Part shown: positions 8,182 through 52,326 of the stretch, in pieces | How the letters are laid out: each line of letters opens with the position of its first letter | Numbering within the stretch: position 1 is the stretch's first letter | Assembly (NCBI GenBank): GCA_007449985.2 | Contig: VIIQ02000632.1 | Span: 248,001 to 312,000, forward strand | Origin: Desmodesmus armatus | Lineage: Eukaryota; Chlorophyta; Chlorophyceae; Sphaeropleales; Scenedesmaceae | Length of the DNA stretch: 64,000 nucleotides | Direction of reading: 5' to 3' | Position numbers and translations under genes: made by a program | The notes under the pieces: generated by a model | Databases searched by the model: none | The model's input: the letters and a program-made list of their open reading frames with translations, nothing else | Told to the model about the DNA's origin: nothing

Positions 8182-10723
8182 TCACAGTGTGGGTGCACCC
8201 CCAAACGCCACCATGTCCAATAAGAAATCCAGTGGTGTCAGCAGGGCGTTCACAAAGTGACTGACCCCTGGTGCTTTGGGAGCCCAGGAGTGAGGCCTGA
8301 ATAGCACATACAGAAGGGCAGCACAGCACGATAGGCAGCAAATCACAGCAGGTTGATCGGCAATGGCCGGCTCAGGTGATAATTGACACCCATCTGGGTC
8401 TGACTACACTGCCCGCCTGTTCAACAGGCTCGCAAGCAGCTGCTGTCACCATGCATATGTACCTCAAAGGTGATCTGTGCTGGCCAAGAACACAGCTGTC
8501 AACGAGGCCAATGTGGGCCCTGTGCAATTTCACGTCCCCAACATGATCAGCAGAACCAAGCCCTAGGGCACAGGCGCCTGTTTCAAATGGCCCAGCGGAA
8601 GTGTGTGAGCAGCTACAACAGCCGCAACCGTTGCTGCGGCAGCAACAGCAGTACGTACCTGCTGGGTGCGATGAGCTTGGCCCACTCGAAGGCCCTACCC
8701 AGCCGCATCAGCTGCTCAGGTGACAGGGCCTGCTCCATGCGAGGCAGCTTCTCCCGCTCCTCCACCTGCAGGTGCTGCTCAGTGTCCTGCAGTGCAGGGG
8801 CAGACAGGGCAGATGGAAGGGTAGAGGGGACAATTGCTGACTAAAGCATTTCCAGGGGCAGGATGGTTTAGGGAGGGGTGGAGTGACTAATCGCTGGCTG
8901 AAGGACCTGCCACGTATGATCAGCACCTGCTGGAGTTCGTGTGAGTTATCTGGGGTTGTGGGGTAGTGACCAAGGCGGCCGTGAGAGTCATTGTGCTGCT
9001 GCACTATTACTGTTGCTGCTGCATCCCACTGGACCTGGCAGGCTTCAACACCCAAAACATAGGCTGCTGACTCTCGCAGGGTAGTGGCCTAGTCACACAT
9101 TTGGGCTGATTCCGCACTGTCACTGTTGCCTGCATCTCCATCACCCACATGGAAGTCACTCTTAGCAATGTAACATGCGAAACATGCGTACCTCCATGTA
9201 CCTTCCCAACAGTGTGTCAAAGCTTGGGTCCGTGACATGTGTGCTGAGCAGCAGCTCCAACAGCTCCTCTAGGTGCTGGTGCTGAGCCACCAACACAACA
9301 GCATCACTACGGCCAGTGCAGGATGCGAGGGCAGGGCCCAGGATCTGGAGCAGTGCAAAGACAGCAGCAGCGATGCAAAAGCTTTCTGGCTAGGTGCTGG
9401 TGCTGAGCCACCAGCACAACAGCACTGTCACGGCCAGTACAGGATGCGAGGGCAGGGCCCAGGACCTGCAGCAGTGCAAAGATAGCAGCAGCGATGCAAC
9501 AGCTTTCTGGCTAGGTGCTGGTGCTGAGCCACCAGCACAACAGCATCAGTACGGCCAGTGCAGGATGCTAGGGCAGGGCCCAGGACCTGCAGCAGTGCAA
9601 AGATAGCAGCAGCGATGCAACAGCTTTCTGGCTAGGTGCTGGTGCTGAGCCACCAGCACAACAGCATCAGTACGGCCAATGCAGGATGCGAGGGCAGGGC
9701 CCAGGACCTGCAGCATTTTTAAGCAGCAGCAGCAGCGATACGACTGCTTTCTGGTTGGGTGTTTCTACACACGTGTTGGATGTGGCATGCCAACTTGGCA
9801 TGAACAAATTCAGCACCGTGCGGGTCATGTTCAAGTTTGCGCTGGCCACTTGAAGAGCGTCATGTGATGGGCTGTGTCAGGTGCAGTCAGCACAGCTGCC
9901 ACTGGCAATGCCAAACTGCTTGCAGGTTTGCTAGTTCCAGTTCAGTGTGGACATTCTGCCCCACCCTGTCTCACTCCCAGTCAGGTGGTTTGAGCAAGCT
10001 ACTAGAGCCGAACTTCCACAAAGGCTGGCTGGCTAGTTTCAAATCAGTGCAGATTCTATTCCACCCTGCGTCATTCCTAGCACTCCCAGCACAACACCTT
10101 GGCATTGTGAAAAATGGGATGGTGAAAAATCAGCTGGTGAAAAATCAGCATGGTGAAAAATCAGCTGGGCAGCTCACCATGTCCTCTTTCTTTGAGTGAA
10201 TGCTGCTGTGCCTGATGATGTCAAGCGCCAGCAACTGCCGCTGCTGCGTGGTGTTGCCAGGTGCCTGGTACTGTGAATACAGTGTGCGCACGCGGCCGTG
10301 GTCTTCACGGATCTGTGTTACACACAGGGGCAGCAATGCCATCAACAGCAGCTGCATGATGCTGCCAGATGTGCAAGACGGGCATAATAGGTGGGCATCC
10401 CGCCGTGATGCTGACACGTGTGTGTTCGTTGCCAGCAGCAACTCATAACAGTCAGGTTGTAGATGTGGCGCATGTGGTAGTGCTGCTGCAACACTGTTGC
10501 TGATGATCTTGCACTCAGTGACTGTGCTGGTGGTGATTGTGCATGGTGTTGTCGAGTAGTTGTCAGCAAACAAGCTGGTATGGTCTGGCAAGTGCTGGGC
10601 CTGCGATCCACGCACCAGCTGTATGATGTCCTTGCTGACCGTGCCAAAAAAGGGATGGAACAGCAGCCTGGCGACTGTTTGGAACAGGTGGCTGACGCCA
10701 TCCAGCAGCCACATGACCTCCAT
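8182..10723 (-). CDS. Hemerythrin (HHE) domain protein, copy A
   Basis: Minus-strand exons recognised at 10616-10723, 10178-10312, 9192-9306, 8659-8786 and 8182-8296. Start ATG 10723 in a CACCATGG context; TGA at 8182. Exon 2 gives IREDH plus HSKKE, exon 4 begins DAVVLVAQHQHL, exon 5 holds QHLQVEE (HxxxE), and the last exon the PHSWAPK tail ending in FGGAPTL, matching FGGAPPM of copy B. Iron ligands are therefore conserved. Exon 2 ends in phase 0 and exon 4 needs two leading bases, so one exon (equivalent to roughly residues 75-90 of copy B) is missing from this model. It should lie in 9310-10170; a minus-strand segment near 9770-9840 is a candidate, but I could not fix its edges. The same intron contains four 121-bp tandem copies of the exon 4 start. 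Function as for copy B. Confidence 0.8.
9269..9752 (-). repeat. 121-bp tandem array of an acceptor/exon-start module (4 copies)
   Basis: The word ctaggtgctggtgctg starts at 9269, 9390, 9511 and 9632, an exact 121-bp period, with a decayed trace beyond 9752. On the minus strand each unit contains intron end, a TAG or equivalent acceptor and the first ~38 bases of HHE-A exon 4. Only the lowest-coordinate copy continues into a full exon. Confidence 0.95.
10107..10168 (+). repeat. Short tandem repeat, unit about 15-16 bp (tggtgaaaaatcagc)
   Basis: Three to four imperfect copies directly after the donor of exon 2 of HHE-A, inside its intron. Confidence 0.85.
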
Positions 10724-11117
10724 GGTGCGTGGATCCTGAGTTTATTTGCACTTTGGGGTGAAGTTTGCTGCCCAGTTGCGCAGGCGGTGCTGCCTAACCC
10801 CCACCTGCAGTTGCCAGCCTGGCAGTGACACAGCAATGACTCATAGGCCCGAAGTCAGGCTGCCTCCAACACCGTTTACTTCTCCTTTCATATATGAATC
10901 CACGGCTTACCAGACCGTATGACAGCGCTCCTTGAGGTGTGCTATTTGAATACATGCTGTGCGACGATCCGTATGCCACAACTGAATTGGCGTGCACAGT
11001 CCACATCACGCGTTTCCAGATCCCAGCAACTCAGGCAGTCTCAGCGGCTTGTATCAACTGCAAACTCTGGGTGCTCTGTTCCGTTGTGGCTACTGATCAC
11101 AAACACAACACACAGTC
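10724..11117. promoter_or_regulatory. Shared upstream region of HHE-A (-) and NSE3 (+)
   Basis: The 394 bp between two divergent start codons. It must contain both 5' UTRs and probably a bidirectional promoter. I see no defined TATA box or other named element. Confidence 0.5.
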
Positions 11118-14100
11118 ATGAGCAGCAGGAAGCGCAGGTCAAGCACCAGGCTGAAGCAGGAGGATGACTCACAAGTTCTCGAGGTTGATCTGGCAGAGGA
11201 GGCACCTGAGGAGCAACCCCGCGGTAAGGACACCCACAACCTGCAGGTGCTGGCTCTGCTGCGGGTGTTGCTGTTGTTCCAGCCTGTCGTGTTCAGCTGC
11301 TGGGACCCTGCCAACAGCACGAACACCTTGAATAGATCCTGAAATCAGCGCTGTTGCCATAAAAGGACGACCCTTGCTTGTGCTTCCTGTTGATGTTGCT
11401 CGCAGTCAAGAGGGAACGGAAAAGCTCTGGCAGATCAACTCCGGCAAGCACCGCAGCCGCAGCAGCAGCAGCAGCAGGGGGTGATGCTGATGATGGGGGC
11501 ACACCAGCAGGAGGGGGAGCACGTGCCAACGGTGCCCCTCCGCGTGACAGGCAGCAGCGCACACAGTTCAATGAAGCCGAGGCAGCATCCATGATGGATA
11601 AGGTCAGTGCCAGGGAGATACTGGCATGCTGTAGTGGCATGGTGGTTGTAAACCGAGACAGATGCACCAGCTGAAAGCATTGAAGGGCTCTGTGCACATC
11701 CATTTACTGAGTGACGTATTATGAGATGGCCTTTGGTCAATGGTAGTTAGTTTGTGTAGCTGGAGGTCAGTGCATCGACCACAGCGGATGCGGTGCTTCG
11801 CCCCAACACCCAGTCCTCAACACTGCACCCACTGCAAGTCTCTGCACGGTCAGGACCCCTCCCGTCTATCTGATTCATGCACGCGCCCCCCAAACCCCCC
11901 ACTGACGTCCCCCACCTCTGTGCTCCGTGCTTGTTGTTCCCCCCCCCCCCCCCCCCAGATCAAGCAGTTGGAGGATGAGGGGGAGTTGGCGCAAGACAAG
12001 GCAGCCAGCCTGGACCTGACGGCGGTGAGTGAATGAAATGACTGTTATGAGTAATGAAATGACTGTCCCCATTCCGGACTACAGTAAACCCGGACCAGAG
12101 TCACTCTGGACTACCGTAGAGGGAGCAGAGAGGGTAGTAGAGTTGGCACTGGTGACTTTGACCTGACAGCGATGGTTCATTGATATAATTGTCTTCGCAC
12201 CGAACCAGAGGGAGCAGACAGTGTGTAGAGGGGTTTTGGGTGGTAGGGTTGGCACTGGTGACAGAGACAGAGACCCAGTTCCCAAACAACGCAGCACACA
12301 CGCATGTATCCTGCAATGTACACACCCGCAGTGGTCCTGCCAGCTGCAGACTGGACTGATGGTGCATTGGCCAACCCAGTCACACACCCATGGCCGCGGC
12401 AGTAGCAGCTGTCCTGCAGGGCATGTCCAGCGTGCTGCTGCACACAGCAGCTGCACAGCACAGCAGGGCGCACAGCTTAGCCGTGCTGGCTTTATAAATG
12501 GACTAGGCAGCGGTGTTTTCCGTGTATGGCTTGCACCCGAATGGTGCACTTTGATTTCCACACCCGCGTCAATCGGCCCTTATAGGCAGCTACACCATGC
12601 AGCAGTCTGTTCTGCCTACACCCTTGCTCATCTAGTGAGCACACATGTTGACTAAACCCCACTTATGTCGCTGCTGTTGCTGCTGCTGCCACTGCTTCCT
12701 GTCTGCCATGCTTGTGTCGTGTTGGATCGTGGTCTCTCTGCTGCACTGTCTGCTCCCCCCCCCCAAATTCACCGTCAGGCCCTGGACACTGCTGTGTCCC
12801 GTGTGGTGCGCTTCCTGCTGTTCAAGCATCATGAAAAGCCTGGTGTACCTGTGAAGCGCCAGGAGATCAGTGACGTCATTACAGTGAGTGATCAATGACG
12901 TCATTACAGTGAGTGACGGCAGCAACATATTGCATGGGTGCTTCCAAGGCATGGGAATGTCCATAGGCCGTACCACCATGCGTTCTTTCTCCCAACCTCT
13001 CACTAGCCAGCAAGTGCGGCTCTCGCCTGCAACAGGCTGTAATGAATGCTATCGGTTGGGGTGGTGGTCCACTGAAGTGGTTGACCGGTCCTTTGCAAAC
13101 CACCGCATCCAGTAGGCACTGCCATAGCTGTGTGGCGATTGTGCTGCCTTGGCATGTGAATGACACTTAGCAAGTGCTGGCTGACCCTCTTCCGCCGCTC
13201 ATCACTCCTTGCCTGCACCTTCCCTCACCCCATGCAATTGTCTGTGAGCAAGGGCAAGATTGGCTCGTGGTTGTGATCTCGTACCGTCTCAATTGCTGGA
13301 AGCTGCTTGAGACCCCTCGTGCCCGGGTGGCAAGCCCCCGTCCGCACCTCTCCCCACACCATGCGGTTGAGTGCAAAGGCATGTTCGGCCCTGTATGTGA
13401 GCTGGTTGGGGAGCCGAACATGCCCTTGCCCAGATCTAACTGCATGGGGTGGGGAGAGGTGGGGAGGGATGCATGCTGTTATGTGACGTCAGCGCATTGA
13501 ACCAGCTGCGCTGTCGTCACATAGCAGCATGCATCCCTCCCCACCTCTCCCCACCCCATGCAGTCACATCTGGGCAAGGGCATGTTCGGCTCTGCCCCAT
13601 AGCTGTGTGTGAGCTTGTAACATCTTGGGTTCGCCGTCGTATCATAACGGTCTGTACGCCCCCCCCCTACCCCCCCTCCCTGCAGTCGAGTGTGGGTAAA
13701 GGCAACAAGGGTCTGCATGTAAGCTTCGGCTCTGTATGTCAGCACTCAAACCCCTGTGGCATGCCCCACCCCTGCACCTCCCCCCCCCCCCCCCCCCCCC
13801 CCCCCACCCACCCACACCCCCTGCAGTCGAGTGTGGGCAAGGGCAACAAGGCTCCGCATGTAAGCTTCGGCCCTGTATGTGAGCACTCAAACCACTGTGG
13901 CATCCCCCCCCCCCCCCTCCCCCCCCGCCCGGCACTCCCCCCGCCTCTTCATCCCCCCCCCACCCCCCTTCGCAGTCGAGTGTGGGCAAGGGCAACAAGG
14001 CTCTCAAGAAGCTGCCTGCCCTTGTGTTTGCTCTGGCTGCTGCCAAACTGGCCAAGGCATTTGGCTTGGAGCTGAGGGAGCTCAGGAGGCACACTCCAGG

Positions 14101-17100
14101 TAGGTCTGCTGCCACTTGCACTAATGGTACTGCCAGCAGCAGCATTGTACTGCTGGTTGTACATTGACACCACCTGCAGTACCTTTGTACTACCAGCAGT
14201 ACATGTGTACTGCCATCCATGAATGTGTACTACCAGCAGTACATGTTTACCATCAGCAGAGCAACAGTACTGCCCACCAAGCTGCATGGTGCTCCCTCAG
14301 TTGCTGCCAAGCTGGCTGAGGCAGGTTGGCCCATCAACATATCAGTACTGCCAGCAAGACCCTTGTGCCGCCAGCAATACCTTTGTACTGCCAAGTGACA
14401 ATAGCGGTCAACAAGGCAAGGGTGGGCAGGCTGCTGTGCCAGATGACAGTCTGCCCCTCTCGTACTGGCAAGCACTCGCCAAAACCTGCCCCCTTCCCCC
14501 ATACACATATTCACCCGCACCACCACACCACCACCTCACCACCACCACCACACCACACCAAGCCATGGTGGTGGTGTGTGGGGTGAGGGGGTGAGGTAAG
14601 GAAGCCACACCACCTGCATGAAACATCTTGCTGCACTGCTGTGTTTCCGCTGTTGCAGGGAGTGGCAACCCAGCAGCAGCAGCAGCGGCGGCGGCTGGCA
14701 GCTCAGCGGCAGCAGCAGCAGGTGGCGGGGGAGCTGCAGCGGCGGCGGCAGCAGCAGCAGCGGGCACGCACTCGTACAAGCTGCTGAGCATGCTGCCTGT
14801 GGACTTACTGGCGAGGTACAACCTGGTCGAGTCAGATAACCAAGGTGACTGCTTTTCTGCTGATTGGGGTTTTGATCAGGGTTGTGGTTACAATGACAGC
14901 ATCTGACTTGGCAACAGGACAGCACAAGTCACCAATGCCCGCTTTGGCAGTTGGGCTTGGCGATAGCCTATCCCTTCCTGAGGAAGCCTCTGTCAAGAAG
15001 ACTTCCAGAAGCCAGAGACGCCTGAGGCCTGACAGGCTTTCTTGCAGTGCTATGCGTGGGAGGGCCTTTCTTTTTAGGATCAGGGCCCCGGTAGTTGCGC
15101 TGCGACCAATGAAACATGATCAACACATGCCATTCACTCCCACCCAGCAGCCATCTGCAGATCTGAGTACATGCATGCCATACGGCCTCACCCTCCTTGC
15201 ACCTGGTGCTGCCAAAGAGGTCCTTGGTGTTCAACCATAGCCCCTGTGGCTGATTTGTTGTCAACCAGTCTAGTACAGCACGTGCCAGATATACCATGCA
15301 CTCACTCTCTTTTGTCCGTTGCTGCTGCTGCACTGCCTCCACAGAGCGTGGCTTCATCACCCTGGTGCTGGCCCTACTGCAGATGAAGCAGTACAAGATG
15401 GATGAAGGTACGGGACAGTCAGGCTTGGATTTGTACTTCTTACTTAGCTTACTGACAGAGAAATGGAAGTTGTTGTGTTTGTATGTGTTGCCTGCTGGAC
15501 AGCTCGCTTGGTGTGCTGGACAGCTCGCTTTGAACAGTATGTGCCGCAGTGAGTACAGGCGGCCAAGGGCGCCTGAACCCGCAGCCAGTAGCGGGTGAAG
15601 CTGGTTGTGTGAAGATATGCTGGTTGTGTGAAGCAGACACTGGCAGCAAGTCTAGCTGGCTCGTGCATGGACTCATCCAGGATCTTTGACAGGCTGTAAG
15701 GATCAATTCCCTTGCAGGCACCATGCATGCATCGGCGTGAAAATTCTTGATGATCCTTGAGAGACTGTATTATGCATTGGAGGGTAGGGTGGTTGTGGCT
15801 AGGCATAGGGCATGGCTTGGCATAGGGCATGCCATAGGCACGGCTGGATGCTGGGCTCTGCCACTCCTGTGGAACTAGATCAGTGCTGAGCTGCCTAGAT
15901 GGTGTTCATGCTCCTTTCCAGCCATGGAAGTGGCTGGTCCTGAAGTGCACTTGATTAGAATACTGTTGATTGCAACTGTATTTTCGCTTTGCAGATGAGC
16001 TGTGGCGACACCAGGGCTGCCTGTTAGGTGTCCTGGCTCCTTTCCCACCATAGTAGTTGCTGGTGATGATCTCCTTTGTCTTCTGGTGATTGACTTGCAA
16101 GTCATCGATTGGTGAAGTTGGTTGTGACTGTGTTTCTGATGTGCAGATGAGCTGTGGCGTCACCTAGGCCAGGTGGGGCTTGAGCGGGACGACCAGGACG
16201 CTGCTATGCCCTTTGGCAAGCACCCCACCAAGATACTGGAGGCGATGGAGCACAGCAGGTAAGGGTTCACTGAAAATGTGGTTTACAGTACAGTATCGTA
16301 ACTCTGGGAGGGGATCCCAAACCTCAGCACTAGCCAGCGAGCCAAGGGTTTATGAGGGTGCCCACAGGGCCTGCAACTCAAGGGTCATCTGATACAGTTG
16401 CTATCGGCAGAATATATCCCAGCACAAACGGTATCCAAACAGAGGAAACCGTGAACAGGTGGATGTGTGTTTGGGCTGCAAACCCTTCCTTGCAGTGCGT
16501 GCAGTCTTGTGCTTGTGCTTGGAGGGAGGCTCTGCTGTCGCTTCCGCTGTCGCATGTGTTGGGTTTATACAATGAATTGCTGGCAGCTCAGCCTGTCCCG
16601 CTGCTGCACGGGCTGTACCTCTGCAGGTACCTTGTGAAGAGCAGGCAGGCCGCCCCCAACACAGAGCGCGGCGTGGTCACCCAGTATGAGTGGGGGGAGG
16701 CGGCACACAGCGAGTTTGGAGACAATGTGCTGGAGGGGGTTGTGACACAGGTCAGTCCAAGGCCACGGGGTGTGTCAGACACCAAGCTTGTTGTGCTTGG
16801 GCGTATAGGGGTTGTTGTGGATTGAGTGCAGGCCCCAGGGGAATGAATGTGGTCTGTGTGGGTACTGCGTGGTGGGGGAACAGATTGCAGACTGGGGCGG
16901 CACGAGAGAGGCCGCATATCAAGCAGGCTGCATTCGTGTGTGGCTTTGAGTTGTCGGCTGCGGGTGAAGCGAGCAAGAGTGGCAGGCATCACTGCACTGG
17001 CATGCATCAGGTTGTAGGTGGGACGGGTGTGGGAGCATACTGTTGCACGTGGATGCTTTCACCGCTGGACGGTATGCTCCACATGCGATGAACTAGGTTG

Positions 17101-22248: not shown

Positions 22249-22508
22249 CGTATGCAGATTTTTACATCACATGAAATGCTGCATTCATCGACCCAACTTG
22301 AGAAGTGAGACGTTGCCTGACTGCTGTTGGCAACCGCTTGTCCAAAAAATGTTTTGACTCCGGTAGTAGTTGCGTGTTCATGCTATCAGTGTATCATATC
22401 CTGTCACTCACAAAGCAATGTTTGAGTGATCTGCTTCGTTAGGCGGCCCAAGCTCGCACCGTATTATCTTGATCACTGAACTCAGATCGTCCAGCACTGG
22501 CAGAACTA
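22249..22508. promoter_or_regulatory. Shared upstream region of MYND gene (-) and repeat protein gene (+)
   Basis: About 260 bp between divergent start codons; less GC-rich than the coding regions. No specific box is recognised. Confidence 0.45.
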
Positions 22509-24805
22509 ATGTGGGGCTGTCTTGCGCGCCTGGTGGTCTCCAGGCGCACACAAGACACTGCAAAACATGTCCTCGCCCACGCATGGGGCCTGCAGCACTT
22601 GGGTGTTGGGGCTGTCACCAGCTCAGCAGGAGGAAGGCCCAAGGCAGCGCAACAGGCAGCAGCAGCAGCAGCAGCGGCAGGAAGCAGCCATTCATCCATC
22701 ACCAGCTGGATGAGCATCAGCAGCTCAAGCTCTGTGGCAGCGGGCAGCAGGGGCAGGCAGCCGCGCAGCAACACAGCACAGGAGTCGGATGCAGCCATGC
22801 AGGCCGGCAATCATAAGGAGCAGCTGACAACCAAGCAGATTAGGAGTCTACCTAGCGTGGTGGCTATGGAGGCTGTCTTCATACAGTACGGCAGCAGCTT
22901 CAACTTGACCCACACAGCAGCAGCCCTCAACAGGTTGGCCAAGCTCGCTGACACTGGGGGCAGGGATAGCAACTTGCAGCAGCTGCTGCCGTGCAAGTGG
23001 CTGCAGCTGCTGCCTGAAGCACGGGGCCATCAATGCGCCACCGCCCTGTGCGCATGCCTCGGTCTCAGCAAGGAGCATGCTAACACAGTCTGGGCCCCAA
23101 GTTGGGCGGCGTTCATGCAGCACGTGCAGCGGGGCTCGGGGGAAGGGTTGATGCCGCAGGACATTGCCGATGCAGTGCGTGCTGCTGCAAAGCTGCGCAA
23201 GCAGCCAGGCCCCGGCGAGCTGCAGCTGCTTGCGCGCAAGTGGCTGCAGCTCCTGCCTCAAGCAGGGGCACACCAGTGTGCCAGCGCCCTGTGCGCATGT
23301 GTCGGGCTTAGCAAGGAGCTGATCGACGCAGTCTGGGCCCCAAGCTGGGCTGCGTTTATGCAGCATGTCCAGCGGGGATCAGGAAAGGAGCTTGTGGCGC
23401 GGGACATTGCCGATGCAGTGTGCGCGGCTGCTAAGCTGTGCAAGCAGCCAGGCCCTGGCGAGCTGCAGCTGCTGGTGCAGGCTTTCCTGCAGCTGCGGCA
23501 AGAGCTGCTGGCAGGTGCCAGTGCCCGCATGTCAGGTAGTTTGATTAATGACATCAACAGGCTGTCAAAACTGCCAGGCTGGCAGGGGGCCATCCGACAG
23601 CAGGACATGCAGCAGCTGCGGGGCGTGCAGCAGCAGCGGCAGGCAGAGGGCGGATAAGACAGCAGATCAGATCAGCTGCGACAGTGGTGCAGTTGCAGCA
23701 CGTTTGCAATGAGCGGGGTGGCAGCTTTAACCTTATGGAGACAGCCGCTGCCCTTGGCAAGCTTTCTAAGCTTGCCAAGCTCGGCTGCGAGGGTCAGGCT
23801 AAGGGGCAGAAAAAAACAAGGCCAGACAGCGAGAGCAGGGTCGATGCAGTTTGGGACCCCACATGGGCGTCGTTCATGCAGCATGTGCAGCAGGGATCAG
23901 GGGAGGGGTTCTTGCTGCAGGCCATTGGACAAGCAGTGGAAGCTGCTGCAAAGTTGCGCAAGCAGCCGGGCCCTGGCGAGCTGCAGCCGCTGGTGCAGGC
24001 GTTCCTGCGCCCAAGGGAGCGGTTCAGTGCTGCAGAAGCTAAAAGCTGTGATCAATTGATCACAGCGCTAGACCAGCTGTCGCAATTGCCAGGCTGGCAG
24101 GGGGGTGTTAGTGATCAGGACATGCATCAGCTGCTGGGTGTGCAGCAGAAGCTACTTGACCAGAAGACAGAGCGGCTGCTCACAGAAGAGATCAGGTCAG
24201 CTGAGACGGTTGCGCAGTTGCAGCACGTCTGCAACAAGTCGGGTGACAGCTTTGAAGTCATCCACGCAGCAGCTGCTCTGAGCAGGTTCAACAAGCTCAG
24301 CCGCAGCTGTGGCCTGCAGAAAGACAGCTATAAGGACAGCGGGATGCTGCAGCTGCTTGTGCGCAAGTGGCTGCAGCTGCTGCCTGCAGCCGGGGTGCGT
24401 GAATGTTCCAACGTCCTGTTAGCAAGTATCAGTCTCGGCGAGGAGCATGTTGACGCACTTTGGGCCCCAACCTGGGCGGCCCTCATGCAGCATCTGCAGC
24501 GGGGATCAAGGGAGGGACTGGTGGGGCGGGACATTGGCGACGCAATGCGTGCTGCCGCGCATGTGCGCAAGCAGCCAGGACCCGGCGACGTGCAGCTGCT
24601 GGTGCAGGCTTTCCTGCAGCCCGAGGTGTTGGCAAGCGCCGAGCCTTGGCAAGTTGGCAGCACTGTCAGGGCTGTCAAGACGCTGTCACGTTTACCGGGC
24701 TGGCAGGGCGGTGTCAGTGAGCAGGACTGGCAGCTGCTTCTCCAGCAGTACCTGCTAACGAAGCAGCGGCTGGCGGCTGATGCAGAGGCAGGCCAGCCTA
24801 GCTGA
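22509..24805 (+). CDS. Helical repeat protein (organelle RNA-factor-like), with apparent frameshift
   Basis: A first frame runs 22509-23657 and a second from at least 23650 to 24805. At the break, the second frame continues the repeat pattern seen later in the protein (RSAATVVQLQHVC against RSAETVAQLQHVC), so this looks like one gene of about 765 aa broken by one extra base in a G-rich run near 23648-23653. The N-terminus (MWGCLARLVVSRR) is basic and could be an organelle transit peptide. The body consists of repeated segments: FNLTHTAAALNRLAKL, KWLQLLP, VWAPSWAAFMQHVQRGSG, DIADAVRAAAKLRKQPGPGELQLL, four or so copies in all. The pattern recalls the leucine-rich helical repeats of algal organelle RNA-binding (OPR or RAP-type) proteins, but I see no RAP domain. 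Function is not assigned. Confidence 0.6.
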
Positions 24806-30858: not shown

Positions 30859-30870
30859 CGCCGTCCCTGG

Positions 30871-38070: not shown

Positions 38071-41000
38071 TCACGCCGATTCCTCGCTCTCCTCCTCACT
38101 GTCCTCATCTGCATTCTTCAACCACTCCAGGAACGCAGAGCACTGCAGCACAAACACATGGGAGTGAGCGCTCGTGTGTGGGCGGTATCCCTGTGCAGTT
38201 TCTGCCAGCTTGTATGATGCCTGCCAGTAATAATAATGTGTGATATCAGTTACTTGTACCATGCCAGTAAGCAGCAAAAGATGTTACAATCAGGGCCTTG
38301 TCGAGCATTGCATGTTGTAAGCGACCAATCGAAAGTGGCACCTCTGAGTGCTGGCCCATGATACAAAAGCACGATCCTTGACTGTACTGCATCAGTACTG
38401 TGTGCCATTACTGAAGCGCAATCACCGATTGACAGCCAAGCAAGTAAGCTCAGGCTCACCTTGTTAAGGAACACCTTCTCCTCCTCGTCAGCATGCTGCT
38501 TCTCCTCCGCCCAGGAGTTTATGGCCGACTCATCCACCAGATCGACATCATACAGCAGCTGCAGCAGATTGGCAAACAGCGGCGCAAACGCGGTGCCGCT
38601 GCTGCCGCTGCCCTGCTGCTTGGCCTGCAGCTGTGCTGGCAGCTCAAACACACCCTCCTCCCCACAGAACTCCTCCATGGTTAGCAGCAGCTCCACCTAT
38701 GGGGGGCAGCACAAAAAACAGAAGCAGCAGCAGGGCATCACCCAAATTTCAGGGTAGGCTATCCTGGGCAGCGTGCAGCTATTTGGCATCAACCAGGGCA
38801 GCAACAAATACAGCTTGACAGTTATACCTGTTGTGAATGAACAGACATGACAACACGGAGGAATGTCTTTAGTGTTGCCACGGCTGTACAGCAAGTAAAA
38901 CCTGCTTCAGGTGCTCAGGTGTTTGGCAAGGGTGTACGCACTCACTGGTGGACATCACCACGTTGCAGCAATCTCACCCAACCCAGCATATCCTCCCCTA
39001 CCTGGTCGTCTTCTGACGTGAGGAATCGCCGCAGTAGCGCCTGCCATTTGTTCATCTGCTTCTTGAACCGCGTCAGCAGCTGCACCTTGCCGTCCTTCGC
39101 GTTTGTGTCAGGCACATCCGACGCAAACAGCGAGAGGTACTCCGGCGACACCCAGGTTGGTGCCGGCAAGCAGAGCGCGAGCAGCGTGGTGAGGATGTAG
39201 CGGGCGCAGTCTGCAAAGGTGCGATCTTCCGCGATTTTGAGGGCGTTGAGCTCGATGACCACGTTGTCCTCTGCAAAGCGCTCCTTGACACAGCGAAGGA
39301 ACGTCTCCGCAACTTCCTGCGGACCACAACAGAGGACACATGGCTTGACAAACATCCAAATATAAGCAGGATCAAACATTGAACAAGCACATTTGCGTGC
39401 AGTAGCACGCAAAGGGACGAATGGCTTCGGGTGGTTCCTTTACTGCCCTGCGCTAAGGTGCTCGGGCTGCTCTTGCCTCATTATGGCAAGCAGGCTGTCC
39501 TAGCACCTCACTGAACCAAGCATGGGCAGCAAGGCAACCCCCATCTAACTACACACACGCAGCACTGGGAGCGCAACTGCCGCACGATTTATCTGCAACC
39601 ATGCAGCACTCAAACTGCGCATTCGCAACAACAGCCTACAACCAACTCACAGCAGTGACCACACACCTGCATGAAGCTTGTCTCAGGGTCCATTTGAGCG
39701 GGGCTCCTCGACCCCACTGCCTCCGCGCGCCCTGCAGCCCCTGAGCTTCCTGCTGCTGCCCCACCGACTGCCTCGTCACCGCTGCCGCCGCCAGCTGCTG
39801 CGCTGTCATCACCCTCAGCATCTGAGTCATAGCCGTGGTGTGTCACGACCCTGCACAGCAAACATGACACCCACACACAGTTGACCAACTTGGTAGGATC
39901 GCCCTTGCATGACTCGAATACATACTCTCCTTGTCTATACACCACAGCACAAAAATGCCCTTGCAGCTTGTGCGAAGCTGGCACGAGATCGCTTGCATGC
40001 TGTTGTTTATCCTGTGCATATCCACACGAGGTTTTGTCCACAACAGCTGCAGCTGGGTTCCAGCAAAGCAACACGTGCGGCATCCCACAGTAGGCCTGTA
40101 ACAAGCATGACTCAACAGCCTGATGGTGGGCACGGTTCATGAGTGCGTGTCAAACCCATATGCAGCTACAATGGCTGCAGCGCTGTTAGCAATATCTTAC
40201 CTCATTGGTGGTGGTGCAATGGAGAAGAAAGCCGGGTCAAACCCGGCATCCGTCTGCGGCCACTCGTACCCCGCACCGCCCTCGCCCACAAGCTGCGTAG
40301 CAAACCCTAGCCCCTGAGCCTCCGCTGCTATCTGACTAATTGCCTTCTTGTCGTGAGAGGCCAGGACCTTGGCAACTTTCAGCACCGCTGCAGAAGGCTT
40401 TTCCAAGCTGGAGCCGTCCGAGACATCGAAGCTGCTGCTGCTGCTGGTGTCGTCGCCGTCGCTGTCTTCGTCACTGCTGCTGCTGCTACTGCTGCTGCTG
40501 TCGCTCTCGGCTCCAGCATGGCTGCTGCGACGGGCGTCCTGCGCATGCGAGTGAAGAAACAGAAGCCAAGCAGCAACACCAGGCGCATGAGCATTCAGAT
40601 TATACAGACATGGCGGAAGACGTTCAGCGGCAAAGGCACATGCGCAAGAGGACTCCTCACGCAGAGAATATTGACAGAGTTCTACGAAAACAACACCACC
40701 GCAGCAGGGGTAGCTTCAATAGCCCTCAAACTGCGCATCAGTGCCACATACGCTCTGAAAGTATGTCCACCGGGGACAATGGCGGCATCAGGCAGAGAAA
40801 ACATTGTGTACAAATGCATGCAGCTGCCCTGCTTTGTGCACAAGTGTGTTTTGCGTATGTTCCGTCACCAAATGACTCGCGCAAGGCTTAGTAACAGCCA
40901 GGGGCGCAAGTAAGTGAGGTGCGGTGCTGATATGTGGTACGTAGGTTTTGCCACCTCCCATTGTGTGGGAGACTGCTGCATGAAGCACCACAAGGGACTG

Positions 41001-44000
41001 CGCCCCTAAACCGTGAGTTGTTGTTGAATCTGCAACCGCCATGAAACCCCAGATTTGCTGGGGTTTGAACCCCTGTAACCACACTGTACTTGCCGCACTG
41101 ATGCCTACAGGCTGTGCAGTGTCAGAACAACTGTGGTCATAGCATGGCATTCACACACAGTGACAACAGTGAAGCTGCAAGTGTGTGAATGGCAGCACTC
41201 ACAGCCCTTCTTTTGTGCTTTAGGCCCATGGCTTGATCGAATCAATGCAACCTGAGGCCTGTCACCCCACCTTGGCAGACGCAGTACTGTGGCACAGCTA
41301 CAGTGGGCACACAGGGCGAGAGGAAAAAGACAGCCAGTAGCTGCGGCCGTGTAACACCTTCATTCCGCATTTCAAGTAGCTGCGGCCCCAAAACCATGAA
41401 CCATGAACCATGAAGAGACAGGGCGGGGCGTCAACAGCCGTGCATAGTGCTCACCTTGCCGGACGCTGGCTTGCCACCGTCCATCGATGAGCGCGGCTTG
41501 CCGCCGCCGCTGCCGCTGGCACGGCCAGCTGATGAGTACTCTAACTCGTCATCCGACAAGCTCACCTGATGCAGGAAGACGGGGGTGGGGCAGGATGGGC
41601 GGATAACGTGTAAAAGTAACAGTGGTATCCCATGACAAAACTCAAAAGTCCTACTAAATGGTGTGCACATGCCAGTACTCAAGCTCTGACAAGGTCACCC
41701 GATGCAGGAGGAAGGGACGCAGTAAGTACAGCACAGGGTGCCTCATATTCGGTCTGACGCTGCCTGCTGCCTGCAGTTTGAAGCATACAACACGCACAGT
41801 TGCTGATTGCAAGCTCAAATCAGGATCAAACCCCATGCAATCACCGTATGTGGGCATCAGCATCAGCATCGACGTCATTGTCAGGAGCATAGCCTGTTTC
41901 CCGTCCCAGCGCCCACCTGCCCCTGCAGCTGCTTGCACAGAGTGATGATAGACAGGCCAGGTACCGTATGGCCCCTGCCCACCACCACGTTGTAGCTGAG
42001 GACCACCCCAGGCTGCAGGACTGCACCGGAGTGCACTGTGGCCCCGGCACACAGCAGCGCATGGCTAGCAGTGACGTTGTCGCCCAGCACAACATTGTCC
42101 TGCAGGCACCGTGGCGGGAGAAGTGACACATGGGGGGGGACAGCACGACACAGCGGTTGACTACAGCGGTGGGATGACTACCAGAGATGCATGTGTGAGG
42201 ATTGGCGCATGACCTGGGTGGTGGTGTGTGTGTGTGTGTGGGGGGGGGGGACAATAGGAATGATGGGTGGGTGGGTGGGTGAGTGCGGGCGGATGGGTGA
42301 ATGGGTGGGGGAGAGCGCTGATTTGCATCTGTGTGGGTGCAGACGGGCCATGCACGTGTCAGGACATGCTACTTCATGGGTGGCTTGGGTGCAGCATTAT
42401 GATACCCTGCATGAGCAGCGGCTAGCACAAACCCCGACAGGCTGACGAGCACATATAGTACACAATCAGTCAACCGCTTATTCGTATGTTCCGTCACCGA
42501 ATGACTCGCGCAAGGCTTAGTAACAGCCAGGGGCGCAAGTAAGTGAGGTGCGGTGCTGATATGTGGTACGTAGGTTTTGCCACCTCCCATTGTGTGGGAG
42601 ACTGCTGCATGAAGCACCACAAGGGGACTGCGCCCATAAACCCTGAAAGCTGAAATCTCAAACCGCCAACAACCCCCACAACCCCTGTGATCACACATTG
42701 TAGCTGCTGGACTGATGCCCCCATATAGAATTACAGTCAATCAAACGCCCCTGTGCCCAGCTGCAGCATACAGCCCTACCTGCAAATAGCAGCCATGCAG
42801 GCTGCACCCCTTGCCAATGATGCAGCCGCGGCCGATGACGCATCTGCTGATGTTGCAGTCGTCCCCGATAGAGGTGCCGGCACCAATAGCAATGGAGGAC
42901 CCCAGGTGAGCCTTGCGGGAGGAAGAGGTCTGGCTCTCAAGGTACCTGTGCAGCAGCAACAGCAATCGCCGTCACCAGCAGTAACGGCCAACAGTAACAG
43001 TCAACAGCCTGTTAGTTGCCTGATGACCCGCCGAGAAACAGTAAACAGGCAGAGGACCGTCATAAGGGCGCTTTGCGGCTAAATCCTAAAGCAGCCAAGC
43101 ACCAATGGGCTGTCGCTACACACTGGCATTTTTTTGCAAACTTGAATGTCTCTGACTCCCAAGGCTTTGACAGGGCTGTCGCACCGGCAAATTTAATTAA
43201 TTAATCAATTAATTATGTAATTAATTAATTGATTAATTTAAACAGCAAGACATCGGGAAACTTGGGGCATGGGCCCGCCCAATCATCGTGACATAAGACT
43301 CACTTGTGCCCCCGCCCGTATCTGTAGCTGCTGGGCCCCCACGGCCCTGCCTTGTAGAAGACGTTGGTGTCTGGCACTTGCTGCTGGCTAAACCCTCAAC
43401 CCTGCCCAGCTGCAACTGGCTGTAGCTTCAAACTGGCATTCACATACGTGGGATATCTGACTCCTCAACGTCCCGAGGGTTGTCGCGACGGCGAACAGCC
43501 AGACAGCTGCAAAAGTGAAGCCTCGGCAAGCCTAATCAGCGTGAAGACATAAGACTCACTTGTGCCCCCGTCCGTATCTGTAGCTGCTGGGCCCCCACGG
43601 CCCTGCCTTGTAGAAGACGTTGGTGTCAGGCACAAAGGGGTAGGCCCAGCGCGACAGTAGGTCTCTACTGATGGCGTCATAGCTGCGGAGGTTGTGCACA
43701 CGCGCGGCATACTCCCCCTGCAGCAGTACGGCACATGTGTGGGGGCACAGCCTGCTGGCACAAGCTCAAGCACAAGCCATCCAGTTGGCCAGCTCCCATG
43801 ACCTCTACTTCTATATATTGCGCTAATATAGGACGGGGTCCATCCATGTACCCCAAATCTCTCAGGCAGTGAAATCTAATACAAAGTGTCCACTTGTAAC
43901 AAAGGTGAAAACATCCACTTGTAACAACCTTGCCCCAATAAAAGATCCTCCCTACTACTAAACCTTCACCTGCAGTACATGGAGGTAGATCTTCTTGCCC

Positions 44001-44565
44001 AGCTCCTCCTCACGGAGTGTGCCCATCTTCCCTTTCTCACCCCCCTTTCTCAATCCCCCTTCTCACTCTCTTACTCCGATCTCACCTGCAGTACATGCAG
44101 GTAGATCCTTTTCCCCAGCTCCTCCTCACAGAGTGTGCCCACCTTTTTTTTGGTTTCACCAGGGGGGGGGGGGGGCGTAAACCCACTGCCTGGCCACACA
44201 CAGCACAATCAGGCGAACCCAACTGCCGGGGGCGCGAGGCGGAGTCTCACCAATGAGATCGCCAAACACCCCTATACCAGGAAGTGCCCAGTGCCCGGAC
44301 CAAAAAGCATGGCAGCCCACCTTCCCTTTCTCCCTCCCCTTTCTCCCTCCCCCTTCTCACTCCCCTCTCACTCTGTTCTCACCTGCAGTACATGGAGGTA
44401 GATCTTCTTGCCCAGCTCCTCCTCACTGAGTGTTCCCACCACAAAGTCCCGTTTGAGTGTCTGGTAGTCAAAGTTGTCGCTGAACATCATCAACACCTCA
44501 GGAGAGCAGATGCTGATGTTGGTATCCAGTAGGTCGGTGCGGACCTGCAGCAAGGGGTGAAAGCC

Positions 44566-44637
<72 letters not shown>

Positions 44638-47600
44638 CAGCATATAGTTTGATTAGCGAGAGCAGTGCACGTCAAGGGAGCAGATGCTGATGTTGGTATC
44701 CAGCAGGTCGGTGGGGACCTGTACAACATAACCATGTGGCAGAACACAGCTGATGCATACACTTCCAACCCCCTTGCAGACAATGTGAGTGAGGATGGGA
44801 CCAGTGCAAGGTTTGACCAGCTAGAGGCTAGAAATTTGTAATCGAGGCCACATCATGTAGCTAGATGAACACTCCCAGACAGTTTTGTAGCAGAGGGCTG
44901 CCTGCTGACTTGCACTGGTAATTGTACTGATTTCAACTTGTTGCAGCGCCTCTAATGCAATGAGAAAGGCATGGCGGCTGCTGTCCCTACCTGCAGCACA
45001 TCCTCTCACTCTACAGTGCAGCATCCAGCTTCCGCAGCTGGCCCCCTTCCCCCCCCCCCCCCACACACACACATGCGCTCACACCAGAACACCAGCTGAC
45101 ACAGGGATATAACAAGATCTGTGCTTGAATGTGCCAAGCTCGTCCCTTCTGTATGCATGAGTCAAGCCCCCTCCTCCCTGATGATACCCCTTTCCCCTTC
45201 AAAAACCCGACACACCCCTCCCATCAGGACCCAGCGGCTGCTGTCCCCACCTGCAGCACATCCCTCTCACTCCACAGTGCAGCATCCAGCTTCCCCGTCA
45301 CCCCCCCCCCCCCGCACCCACACCCGACACCAGCTGACACAGGGATGGCGGCGGCTGCTCCAGCAGCAGCCCTAAGAACGTTTGTGCTTACGTTTGCCAA
45401 GCTCGCCCCCTCCTGTATGTCTGCATCAAGCCCCCTTCCCCCCTGGAAACACCCCCCCAATCGTAACAGACAACCCCACCAGTGCCAACCCACCACCCCA
45501 CCTGCAGCACATCCCTCTCACTCCACAGTGCTGCATCCAGCTTCCACAGCTGACCCCCTCGCCGCCGCCCATGGTGGTGGTGATGGTGGTGGTGGTGGTG
45601 CCGGTGTGCATCTGCACCTGCGCTGCTGCTGCTGCTCTCTGCTGCTGTTCCCGGGCCATCCAGCTCCTGGTACTTCAGCAGCCGCTGCAGTGCAGACAAA
45701 GCCAAGCAAAACAGTCCAGCACAGTACAGTACTTGGGGGACAGAGCCCAAACCTCGGCACTAGCCGGCGAGCCAAGGGCTTAATAATGATGATGAACAAC
45801 AACATACACTCATAGATCATGCGTCATGACAGTTCAGCAGGCGCTGCACTTCAGACAAACCGGTGTGGAACTGCATACACTCATAGAACATGACTCATGC
45901 TGCATGAGTCACGATACTCAACAGCCGCTGCAGTGCAGACCGGCATGTTCAAGTAACATGACTAAAAATGTACGAGTGCATGTTGTTCCTGTGGAACATG
46001 GCTCTGTCCGCCATGAAGAACCACATACAATCATACATGTTTAGTCATGTTACTTCAGCAGCCGGTGCAGCACAAGCCGGCACAGCCAAATAATAACTGT
46101 TACTCATGATGTCTTGCCTTGCGTTTCTTTGCTGTTGCTACTTTATTGCCTTGTGTTACTTCGCTGGCACACGGTTCAGGCCGCTGCAGTGCAGACAACA
46201 CCATGCAACAGAACAACATACACTCATAAATCATGAGTCATGTTTGCTTCAGCAGCCACTGCAGCATCAGCCAACACAGCCATAGAGTACCGCCCAGCGG
46301 TGAAAGTATCCAATTGTAACAACCTCCCCCCCCCCAGGATAATTGTTACTTTTACGGTTACATGGTTCAGGCCATAACTGTTTCTTTTACGGTTGCATGG
46401 TTCAGGCCATGCCTAAACACCCCAATGAGGCCCATTGGGCATCAGTGTCATACAAGGCATCAACAATCTGTAAGGCAAGCACAGAACTCCATGTGTGTGT
46501 CTTGGTGCACACTACTCACTAATGCCAGTTGTTCATTTTGCAAATAATGCCAACTGCACAATTACTTGCTGTGCTGTTTGTTGTGGTTGTGGCATCGCTG
46601 CGGCAGATGCTACTGCTGCTTTAGCTGCTCCTAATGCCCCGTCAACGGCAACTGTGCACTGTCAGCTGCGTACAGTACAGAACAGGGACCAAAATGGGGG
46701 ACAAGGGACAAGGTTGACGACAAGGCTTACCTGTGTGTGCTTGTCCAGGGCGACCAGGAGGTTTGAATCTCCCAGGCGCAACCGCTGGTATGGTGTCTGT
46801 ACACTCTTCATAACCTGCAGGGCATGCAGTGCCGCAATTGATGGCAGCACCATGAGTACTAGACTTGGTATGGCAGCAGTGGGTACCTTGGGCATGTCGA
46901 GATGCTGCCTGTGGCAGCATGCTGACAAACAGGCATGGCAGCGATCAGGTTATGCTGTCAACTCCGGTGCTGCTGCTGCTGCTGCTGTGCGCGAGTGGGT
47001 GTGCAAAGCCATGCCCCAGCAGAAACAAAGACCAACAGCTGCTGCCGCTGCTGCCGCCACTGCTGCTGCTGCTGCTGCCACTGCAACTACAACGACCGTT
47101 GCTGCTGTGCCGTACCAGTGTCATGATGGCATCCTTGTCCCTCTCTGCCCGCTCCCTGTGCGCTGCCAGGATGGGACGCAGGTCCATGTTGGACACGGTG
47201 TCACCTGCGGGCATGTAGGTGGTGTGGGGATACACATGCGTCAACGGGTGCATCAGGATCAACAGCATGTTGGACACAGCGTCACCTGCAGGCACATACA
47301 CGGTGCGAGGGCACCAAAATGCGTCAATCAAGTGCATGAGAAGCTACAACTCCTTATGCACAGTTTGACCTGTAGGAGAAGGTGGAGCATGTGTGTGAAA
47401 CAACCACATGTTGGACGCAGTTCACCTGCAGGCATACAGGTTGTGCGGGGGCACAAACATGGGTCGACTGATGCGTGGAGCACCAGCATCTAGGACACAG
47501 CGTCACCTGTGGGAGAAGGTGGTGTGTGGATGCAACATACGTCCGTGACACACACTGACCTGTGAGGAGGATGAAGGTGCCCTTGATCATGTCCCGTTGG

Positions 47601-48977: not shown

Positions 48978-51900
48978 ATGCGCCAGCAGGGGTTCCTTCC
49001 AACCCACACTCAACAGCAGCTCGCAACACACGTCTGTCATCTCCGGAGGCCTGAGCAGCATGTCAGAAGCACTGCAGTGGTAGCAGCATCAGCCTCAGCA
49101 CAGGCTGGCGCTCTGGACCAGCAGCAGGTTGCACAGCAGCTTTGTCCGCCACCTGCAGGCTATGATTACAAAGCAGAAATCATGCCTGAAACGCTGGAGG
49201 TTGTGCAGCAGCAGTACCCACAGCTTATGGGCCTGGTCCAGGCAGGTGGGTGGAATGTGAGGATCGACGTTTGTCGCAGCTGACTTCCTGCACGTGCTGT
49301 TGTGCCTGCTAAGCCAGAGACAAAAAGTTCCTCAGATATCACGGGCTCCACCAGACGTTGCAAGGTAGCACAATGGGATACCAGTGCAATGCAGTGTCAA
49401 GATCATGTGTCAGGCGCGCCAGCCCTACACACAAACACTCTTTGAGCCCACACTATCTCATGCCCCACTCTACAGCCTGACGTCACTATCCGTAGCTGTA
49501 GCTGTTGTATCTCCATGCATCTTATCGATACATCACTGAATGCTGCTGGCTGTGCTGTGATGTGATGTGGTCACCCCTCGGCCCAAGGCATTTGGTGGTG
49601 TACAGGCGACCGGCGTCTTACAGAGAGCGCCGCAGCGACGGCCACCATACATCTTATCTCAGTGTTCTGTGTGCTGCTGTGGTGTGCTGTGCTGTGGTCA
49701 ACCCTCCCTGCAGGGAATGTGTTGGTGTACAGGTGCCCTGCTTCTTACAGAGAGCGCCGCAGCGACGGTTACCAAGAGCCCCAGCTAGTTTTCATCCTCG
49801 GCACTGCTCACGTATCTCCATGCATTTTATCTTACTGTACTGTGTGCTGCTGGCTGTGCTGTGCTGTGGTCACCCGCCCGTGTGGTCACCCCCCCCCCCC
49901 CCCCGCAGGCAATCTGGTGGTGTACAGGCGACCTGCTTCTTACAGAGAGCGCCGCAGCGACGGTTACCAAGAGCCCCAGCTAGTTTTCATTCTGGGCACA
50001 GCTCATGTATCCCAGCAGTCAGCAGAGGACGTAAGCCAGCTGATAGCAGCGGTGCAGCCAGATGCAGTGGTTGTGGAGCTTTGCAAAAGCAGGACAGGTG
50101 TGCTGCATGGTGCTGAACAAGAGGACCTGCAGCAGCAGCAGCAGCAGCAGGAGCTTGGGGAGCATCAGCAGCGGTGGCAGCAGCAGTGGCAGCAATGGCA
50201 GCAGCGGAAGCGGCCGCAGGAAGATGCTGCTGCTGCTGCAGTTGCTGCCAGCAGCAGCACGACCAACTCTATAGAAGAGGACAGCCGGCTACCACTACAA
50301 CACCCTGCCTTATCACCCACCACCACTACACACAGCAGTACCAGCAGCAGCAGCAGCAGCAGTAGTACAAGCAGCAGTGGCAGTGTGTGGCAGCAGCTGC
50401 AGCGATCACTCTCAGCTTCTCAGTCAGCCAAAGCCTCTAACCCACTGTCCCTATCTGGCCCTGATCCAGTGAGGGCCCTGGCTCGCTCTGCCTCACTGGG
50501 TGGGCAGCAGGCGATGCTGCTGCGGCTGTTGATTGCGGGCCAGGCACGGAAAGCAGCAGGTGGGTGCTGTCGTGGGGTGTTTGGGTGGTGTTTCTTTGGC
50601 GGGGGGCTATGTCAGAGTCACCCGGTTTTGAATTCTTTTTTCTTTTCTTTTTGAATTGAATTAAAATTGAACACATCTCGCGCTTTAGGTTTAGGGGCAA
50701 GTCAACTTGATGAGGACTGATTTGGTGTGTCATGTATGCTGCTGCTGCTGCTGCTGCAGACCAACTAGGTGTCCAGCCTGGTGCAGAGTTCCGTGCTGCT
50801 GCCGAGGCTGCTGCTGCTGCCCTTACTGACCTGTAGACCAGTAATCAGCCTGGTGCTAAATTCCATGCTGTTGCTGCTGTTGCTGTTGCTGCCTGCAGAC
50901 CAATTAGGTGTGCAGCCTGGTGCCGAGTTCCGAGCTGCTGCCGAGGCTGCTGCTGCTGTGGCTGGCGGCCAGTGCTGCCTGGTGCTGGGGGACAGGCCCA
51001 TAGAGATCACGCTGTCCAGGGCATGGGAGGCCCTCAGCTGGCCCCGCAGGCTGCAGCTGCTGGGAGACTTGGCATCAGCTGGAATGGCAGGATCGGGCAA
51101 GGTGCGTGTCTGTGGAACCCCTTGAGCATTGGTCAGGTGCTGTCTTTGTCTGATTCTGTAGCTGTGGGGTTGGTGGGGTGTATGCTGTTGGCCAGGTGCT
51201 GTTGTCAGTTTAGGCACAGGAGTTGATGCATGTGGAGGGTCCATCTTGGTGAATTGGAGGGATGATGGAATCTGGCATGACTACAGAGTTGTTGGCAGGT
51301 GCACCCACCACGTGGTGTATCGAGTGCACTGATTGTGCTGTGTGCTTCACGCCTTCAGCCAGCTTATGGTTGGTGCCGGGGATGGGCTTGCATCTGTTGG
51401 GAGGTTCAAATGTTGGGAGGTTCAACAGTATGCCCACCCCTGCAGCAGCAGTGGGCACTGCAGGCCGCAACAGCAGGGCGCTGCGTTGGACATACTTCTG
51501 AGACCAACGCTGTTGGTCATCCAGCATTCAGTCCAGGACATTGACACAGATCTGCCGTGCCCTGCCCTGCCCTGCTTGATTCCTATGCTCCCGCCTTCGT
51601 GTTTGCCTGCCACCCTCAGGCCGTCCTAGACCAGGAGCAAGTCGAGTCCTTGCGCTCAGATGACGCCATATCAGCGCTGTTTGGGGCACTGACACAAACT
51701 TGCCTGCCCTGCCCTGCCCTGCCCTGCCCTGCTTGATTCCTATGCTTCCGCCTGTGTGTGTGCCGCCCTTAGGCCGTCCTAGACCAGGAGCAAGTCGAGT
51801 CCTTGCGCTCAGATGACGCCATATCAGCGCTGTTTGGGGCACTGACACAAATCTGCCTGCCCTGCCCTGCCCTGCACTGCATGCTTCTTATGCTCCCGCC

Positions 51901-52326
51901 TTCGTGTTTGCCTGCCGCCCTTAGGCCGTCCTAGACCAGGAGCAAGTCGAGTCCCTGCGCTCAGATGACGCCATTTCAGCGCTATTTGGCGCACTGAGTG
52001 ATCGCTACCCGGAGCTTGTAGCCCCTTTGATAACTGAACGAGATCTTTACCTCAGTTGGAGTCTCAAGCGGTCAAAGGCAGTCAACGGGGCTCGGGCGGT
52101 TGTCGGTTGTGTTGGAAAAGGCCACTTGCGGGGCATTGTGTATGCTCTCAAACATGATGAGGGAAGCCTGCGGTTCAAGGATCTTGTGGGAGGGAAGAAC
52201 AACAGGCAAAACCGCAAGGCGGCTGCAGCAGCAGCGGTGCGGCGGTTGCTGTTGGAAGGGGTGCTTGGTGCAGCGGCGTATGCGGCTTGGGTTGCATGGA
52301 CAAGCAGCAATGCTGCAGGGCAGTAG
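48978..52326 (+). CDS. TraB-family protein
   Basis: Four exons close in phase to 507 aa: 48978-49245, 49909-50559, 50899-51101, 51925-52326. TraB signatures are clear: LVFILGTAHVS near residues 114-124, PDAVVVELCKSR, QPGAEFRAAAEAAA, the LVLGDRPIEITLSRAW block (DRxxxxTLxRAW), ITERDLYLSW and VVGCVGKGHLRGI. The family includes animal TRABD and bacterial TraB/PrgY; its catalytic role is inferred to be metal-dependent hydrolysis from the GxH and GxxH motifs. The N-terminal 60 residues are Ser/Arg/Gln-rich and could be an organelle-targeting sequence. Exon 2 carries a Gln/Ser/Ala low-complexity insert. The last exon ends AAYAAWVAWTSSNAAGQ, possibly membrane-associated. Exons 2, 3 and 4 each have two extra partial copies of their start in the preceding intron. 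Confidence 0.9.
49588..49975 (+). repeat. Copies of the TraB exon 2 start (3 in all)
   Basis: ggtggtgtacagg followed by cttacagagagcgccgcag occurs from 49588, 49714 and 49909. The second also has a good acceptor (ccctgcag) and reads in the same frame as the true exon, including the GTAH motif, before diverging. Confidence 0.95.
50758..50960 (+). repeat. Copies of the TraB exon 3 start (3 in all)
   Basis: caglike acceptor plus accaattaggtg... and cagcctggtg at 50760, 50836 and 50899 (spacing 76 and 63). The copies decay with distance from the exon. Confidence 0.9.
51600..52010 (+). repeat. Copies of the TraB exon 4 start (3 in all, 153-bp period)
   Basis: gccgtcctagaccaggagc begins at 51620, 51773 and 51925. 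About 75 exon bases are conserved almost exactly in each copy, each preceded by ccctcag or cccttag, and separated by ccctg pentanucleotide runs. Confidence 0.97.

Follow-up and report, generated by a model that had tools for sequence, protein, structure and literature searches.

In a stretch of 64,000 nucleotides from the green alga Desmodesmus armatus (assembly GCA_007449985.2, contig VIIQ02000632.1, positions 248,001 to 312,000; hereafter the window), introns repeatedly contain copies of the edges of their own exons. Residue-level alignments and, for one donor, a tandem-repeat call place such copies, each comprising an exon edge and the adjoining intron sequence, inside the intron at 16 splice junctions of four genes, which Pfam identifies as hemerythrin (HHE-A), NSE3/MAGE, eIF2B-epsilon and TraB. 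An earlier sequence-only reading of the window had proposed that duplication in this genome favours the splice junction itself. Ordinary short tandem duplication, with selection on the messenger RNA (mRNA) acting as a filter, probably explains most of the pattern. A genome-wide bias toward junctions is not supported: outside the window, the share of duplications that span a junction equals the geometric expectation. A modest bias is possible.

The analysis covers the window and 270 kb elsewhere in the 115.8-Mb, 831-contig genome, sampled as 27 loci (20 stretches of 10 kb, then 4, then 3 more). Gene models come from a self-trained gene-finding hidden Markov model (HMM), built from sequence only. 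The HMM converged on the donor CAG/GTRAGT and the acceptor TGCAG/G (slash, splice site), and labelled 122 kb of the 334 kb as coding, 133 kb as intron and 79 kb as other, with 510 introns of median length 234.5 bp. Self-alignment of 264 kb (the window and 20 loci), limited to near-diagonal pairs at most 2 kb apart with E ≤ 1e-3, yields 167 pairs, against 0 after one round of block-wise dinucleotide shuffling; head-to-tail or near-adjacent copies thus exceed chance in this single shuffled control. The copies that the sequence-only reading described at "about ten sites in five genes" are real, and 16 junctions are counted here; the number of genes is not borne out, as four had been named and four are found. 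Many copies are partial or parted by filler without detectable homology. Junction-spanning copies recur in the 270 kb outside the window. Of the 27 outside loci, 14 contain genic duplications and 13 have none, and a single 10-kb stretch (L004) accounts for 9 of the 31 found there, so that duplication seems to be unevenly spread over the genome.

Junction share and the geometry of genes

The geometric null places a duplicated unit uniformly in genic sequence and lets units survive that lie inside an intron or cover one junction. With the introns and exons of this genome, the junction share among survivors (junction plus intronic) is then, for a unit of d bp, 0.34 at d = 60, 0.60 at d = 150 and 0.79 at d = 300. 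Over half of the duplications that spare the mRNA are expected at junctions because the units, about 60–300 bp long, are comparable in size to the introns (median about 235 bp). This high expected share presupposes the removal of exon-internal duplications.

Outside the window, the automated set of duplications follows this expectation, with 18 of 31 events at junctions versus 17.0 expected (P = 0.43). The result is similar for alignments of at least 40 bp (14/22 versus 12.1, P = 0.27), for full-length units (8/14 versus 7.2, P = 0.44), for a null applied within genes (17/30 versus 15.3, P = 0.32) and for a hand-curated set (10/18 versus 10.6, P = 0.71). Across all genic events, the automated set gives 32/48 versus 27.1 (P = 0.095) and the curated set 23/33 versus 19.3 (P = 0.12). 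On these 270 kb, as annotated by the HMM, junction duplications are not significantly commoner than geometry predicts, which is the outcome that the sequence-only reading had itself named as counting against its proposal, and the genome-wide bias is not supported. By hand calculation, 17/30 versus 15.3 corresponds to an odds ratio near 1.26 (approximate 95% range, 0.6 to 2.6), so that a moderate junction bias is compatible with the counts.

The composition of the sets bears on how these counts are read. The automated set holds no genic entry for TraB 51536–51997 and eIF2B-epsilon 45665–46282, two junction families that are present in the curated set, and its window count is short for this reason. 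Among its junction counts are three exon-only families, of which two lie outside the window and one, the microsatellite at 6107, inside it. Two coding repeats (window 22976 and L021 8117) are counted there as well. The families at window 22976, L021 8117 and window 6107 were dropped before the within-gene test; an in-frame 99-bp array at L026, which may be another coding repeat, was kept. For the curated test, the states of the window were corrected by hand.

Several counts weigh against an explanation by geometry and selection. Inside the window, junctions are in excess in the automated set (14/17 versus 10.1, P = 0.036), under the within-gene null (12/15 versus 7.1, P = 0.008) and in the curated set (13/15 versus 8.6, P = 0.016). 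When the window and the outside loci are pooled, the within-gene null gives 29/45 versus 22.4 (P = 0.027), alignments of at least 40 bp give 26/36 versus 20.7 (P = 0.047) and full-length units give 15/21 versus 11.2 (P = 0.069). The P values are also approximate, because events cluster, as in L004, and because the HMM models are made from sequence alone. The window excess is a selected one, however, since the window is the sample in which the pattern was discovered. A null that slides the aligned pieces only gives a strong excess (22/33 versus 11.8, P = 0.00015) and would point the same way; it was rejected on the ground that the exonic portion of any tandem unit starts at the junction, and wholly exonic pieces are not to be expected.

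The excess in the window and in the pooled within-gene test is what one would see if junctions were genuine hotspots, with duplication promoted beyond geometry by junction transcription or by the acceptor sequences themselves (CTGCTGCAG, tracts rich in C or T). For events of at least 40 bp, CTG/CAG runs are close to 30 of 100 alignment ends at junctions (20.3 expected) and to 4 of 40 in introns (6.1 expected), and the TraB unit at 50737–50958 is flanked by CTG tracts on both sides. This breakpoint test is suggestive at most, since it is confounded by the acceptors, which themselves match the CTGCAG pattern. The junctions sampled outside the window show no significant excess and divide evenly into 9 acceptors and 9 donors. 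A preference for acceptors, which stood at 20 to 8 junctions at first, weakened to 19 to 12 in the larger set (P = 0.28) and was rejected. Hotspots are therefore an unlikely source of the pattern. It is rather unlikely, too, that CTG/CAG-rich acceptors or transcription-linked breaks create real hotspots with a modest mutational bias of up to about 2.6-fold, feeding a steady supply of decoy splice sites of which some are kept in use.

The counts in coding exons speak for the selection that we favour in place of a targeted mechanism. Without selection, 15.8 duplications with 40 or more aligned bp would be expected inside exons; two were filed as exonic, and two coding repeats had been misfiled as junction events. 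The periods of these four (390, 72, 243 and 102) are all multiples of 3. Among four shorter exonic matches of 24–34 bp (periods 102, 290, 301 and 190), one in four is. Junction families leave remainders of 0, 1 and 2 in 9, 9 and 11 cases, and intronic families in 4, 3 and 9. Coding exons contain fewer duplications than expected, and those that are clear keep the frame. The window holds two in-frame coding repeats, with units of 36 bp (12 residues) at 35509–35896 and of 243 bp (81 residues) at 22975–24816. These are the kind of exon-internal duplication that survives.

Junction copies in the window and their decay

The 16 junctions are made up of 15, with both edges of the exon 45331–45412 counted, and the donor of NSE3 exon 4. 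Exons were matched by position to those of the sequence-only reading, whose numbering is kept. The features are as follows, with the evidence in parentheses.

9192..9344, minus strand: exon of HHE-A (hemerythrin) with the true acceptor at 9344 (HMM model; Pfam Hemerythrin; HHE-B intron at the corresponding codon position)
9247..9761, minus strand: HHE-A array of four copies of about 121 bp, intron end plus exon start (Tandem Repeats Finder (TRF), 4.1 copies, 92%; alignments)
12865..12916, plus strand: 25-bp duplication (2.1 copies) spanning the donor of NSE3 exon 4, where the exon ends at 12883 (TRF, 96%; HMM exon end; sequence)
13216..14004, plus strand: NSE3 acceptor array with the true acceptor 13975, decoys 13826 and 13685, and older traces from 13216 (alignments)
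15890..16164, plus strand: NSE3 acceptor 16146 with a copy at 15994 (alignments)
41552..41716, minus strand: eIF2B-epsilon acceptor 41565 with a weak short copy, 32 bp, 84%, AG lost (alignments)
43241..43633, minus strand: eIF2B-epsilon donor 43559 with a copy at 43303, exon part 97% (alignments)
43966..44440, minus strand: eIF2B-epsilon donor 44382 with two copies, 44085 and 43969 (alignments)
44494..44721, minus strand: eIF2B-epsilon acceptor 44544 with a copy at 44718 and a CAG/CTG microsatellite between them (TRF; alignments)
44974..45570, minus strand: eIF2B-epsilon donor 45501 with copies at 45250 and 44990; old whole-exon copy (exon 45331–45412) (alignments)
45665..46282, minus strand: eIF2B-epsilon acceptor 45684 and three short copies (45843, 45927, 46183) (alignments)
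47185..47543, minus strand: eIF2B-epsilon acceptor 47204 with decoys 47285, 47425 and 47506 (alignments)
49507..50011, plus strand: TraB acceptor 49908 with decoys 49713 and 49587 (alignments)
50737..50958, plus strand: TraB acceptor 50898 with decoys 50836 and 50759, CTG tracts at both unit ends (alignments)
51536..51997, plus strand: TraB acceptor 51924 with decoys 51772 and 51619, unit of about 150 bp (TRF, 2.9 copies, 90%; alignments)

The AG is kept at all three decoy acceptors of HHE-A (9465, 9586 and 9707) and at both NSE3 decoys, 13826 and 13685. When the duplicated pieces are left out and the reading of eIF2B-epsilon is joined by hand, it aligns without gaps to PDB 5b04_I, which we take to be a fission yeast chain, at acceptor 47204, and without gaps around donor 43559 up to a gap after the donor; as the pieces were omitted before the alignment, this supports the assigned junctions but does not prove them. 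Two eIF2B-epsilon introns also share a 199-bp repeat (40854–41051 and 42483–42678, 92% identical), which occurs in at least five places in a genome search and may be a small dispersed element.

Assemblers can mis-size arrays, and collapsed or expanded repeats have to be considered as a source of the copies. The window pairs range from 68% to 97% identity, differing by about 3–32% and each carrying its own indels, as would not be expected if the assembly had duplicated a single locus. About half of the outside loci, too, contain genic duplications; an assembly artefact is accordingly very improbable. The junction-spanning duplications are of various ages, in keeping with the sequence-only reading, in which copies went from almost identical to barely recognisable.

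Decay was measured over 31 junctions, with the nearest copy for each and with L021 and two redundant junctions excluded. Exon-derived parts differ at 134 of 1359 sites (9.9%, with 71 gap columns) and intron-derived parts at 381 of 3139 (12.1%, with 354 gap columns); both values are underestimates, because the aligned parts alone are counted. By codon position, with one copy per junction and 73 exon sites lacking a frame label left out, the differences number 31/408, 27/413 and 61/409 at positions 1, 2 and 3. Positions 1 and 2 (about 7%) thus show about half of the intron divergence (12%), and position 3 (15%) about all of it. This pattern fits a copy that changes freely and an exon constrained mainly to third-position change. 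An alternative recount over 54 pairs, which leaves out 146 sites without a frame label, gives 66, 42 and 85 differences. It stands beside a first count over 58 pairs (114, 75 and 125) that was replaced, as it contained the coding repeat L021 and the two redundant junctions. In their substitutions, the intronic copies appear to decay about like neutral copies of a constrained exon.

We do not call the retention of splice dinucleotides neutral. Overall, AG or GT/GC is kept in 35 of 43 copies, against a neutral expectation of 33.2, so that decoy splice sites are indeed added, as had been suggested from the sequence. Within this total, two departures run counter to neutral decay: window copies keep AG or GT in 26 of 27 cases versus 20.5 expected (P = 0.005), and outside copies (L004–L022) keep the dinucleotide in 9 of 16 versus 12.8 (P = 0.026, low). 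The opposite directions may stem from a difference in the junctions used, which were hand-curated for the window but taken from the HMM elsewhere. Some exon parts are also conserved beyond their introns. In the donor pair 43559/43303, the exon part is 97% identical versus 78% for the intron part; at L029, the exon part is identical at 52 of 52 sites versus 85% with 10 gap columns in the intron; and some pairs lose homology 3–14 bp into the intron. Short gene conversion, use of the copy or chance could be responsible.

These exon parts, together with the high retention among window decoys, would suit intronic copies that act as functional alternative exon edges, at acceptors or donors, and that selection or gene conversion from the exon maintains. 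Such copies would be expected to yield usable products. Of 52 evaluable copies, 48 would cause a frame shift or bring in a stop if their decoy were used (two further copies have no frame assigned), and an open in-frame insertion is predicted for the remaining four: window 47285, 49713 and 49587, and L026 4845. The low divergence at codon positions 1 and 2 is that of an unconstrained copy, and retention outside the window falls below the neutral value. Function is thus a very unlikely general explanation. Individual decoys may differ in this respect: use of eIF2B-epsilon 47285 is predicted to add 81 bp, and use of TraB 49713 or 49587 to add 195 or 321 bp, which makes the decoys at 47204–47285 and 49587–49908 candidates for real alternative splicing.

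Intron length and the probable origin of the copies

Introns that contain a duplication of at least 40 bp have a median length of 498 bp (n = 31), compared with 229 bp for those without (n = 470). This is consistent with the earlier claim that the copies lengthen introns, but long introns are also larger targets for duplication, and the association may in part be one of target size. An instructive comparison is provided by HHE-B, a paralogue about 2.5 kb from HHE-A, whose intron interrupts the gene at the matching codon (just ahead of VLYPA, versus ILGPA in HHE-A). The HHE-B intron measures 175 bp and has no array, whereas the HHE-A intron, with three extra copies, measures 833 bp. In this sole intron compared, no new intron position was created, which fits growth of an existing intron rather than gain of a new one.

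The copies, their positions and their rates of decay are observed, as is the agreement with geometry beyond the window; the mutational mechanism, the step of selection and the choice of the spliced copy are what we infer from them. Short tandem duplication would be frequent, with units mostly of 60–300 bp, and some of it perhaps arises through slippage or end-joining at CTG/CAG-rich microhomology. At L029, 17 bp of unrelated sequence lie between the copies, of the sort that end-joining repair can leave. A duplication wholly within coding exon would alter the protein and be removed unless in frame and tolerated. One that is intronic, or that covers one junction, would leave the normal mRNA obtainable if the copy adjoining the real exon is used. 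Since a unit is about as long as an intron or an exon, many of the duplications that are tolerated would straddle a junction. Copies left inside the intron would decay with time and be seen as decoy splice sites in an intron that has become longer.

The case shows to what extent plain geometry, together with purifying selection, may pass for a mechanism targeted to the junction. The alga also offers a system for asking how the spliceosome picks among several near-identical acceptors or donors, and what share of intron growth stems from short tandem duplication. Apart from the junction copies, the window contains a 135-bp minisatellite at 28691–32106. Its two arrays, separated by about 1 kb, have about 8 and about 9 copies with 99% identity, and weaker relatives lie on contig C827.

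Comparison with known systems

Among open-access titles and the openings of abstracts, we found no description of exon-edge copies in algal introns or of a junction bias tested against geometry. Genome statistics for Sphaeropleales, including T. obliquus with 57% GC content, are given in the available part of PMC5966456. The novelty claimed for the pattern is weakened by a report on Chlamydomonas reinhardtii and Volvox carteri, the accessible part of which already describes tandem repeats concentrated near intron-exon junctions (PMC3887541). As in D. armatus, the hosts are green algae; the repeats are genome-wide, densest in introns and shifted toward intron ends. As far as its accessible part goes, that report emphasises short motifs that may play a role in splicing, and describes neither exon-edge copies nor a geometric null.

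Tandem duplication has also been connected with intron gain in Drosophila, according to the accessible portion of PMC2891723, and internal tandem repeats at exon-intron boundaries are known from human genes (PMC2812944, abstract-level account). The human repeats resemble the algal ones in lying at the boundary, and are described as having changed splicing and formed novel introns. They differ in that they belong to recent paralogues in segmental duplications with transcript evidence, whereas the algal copies decay within existing introns and are seen in genomic sequence. In potato, as outlined in the available part of PMC4974935, a short tandem duplication likewise meets splicing and one copy turns intronic. 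There, a duplication of coding sequence creates a new intron; in D. armatus, the duplication involves a junction that is already present, and it is the intron already there that becomes longer.

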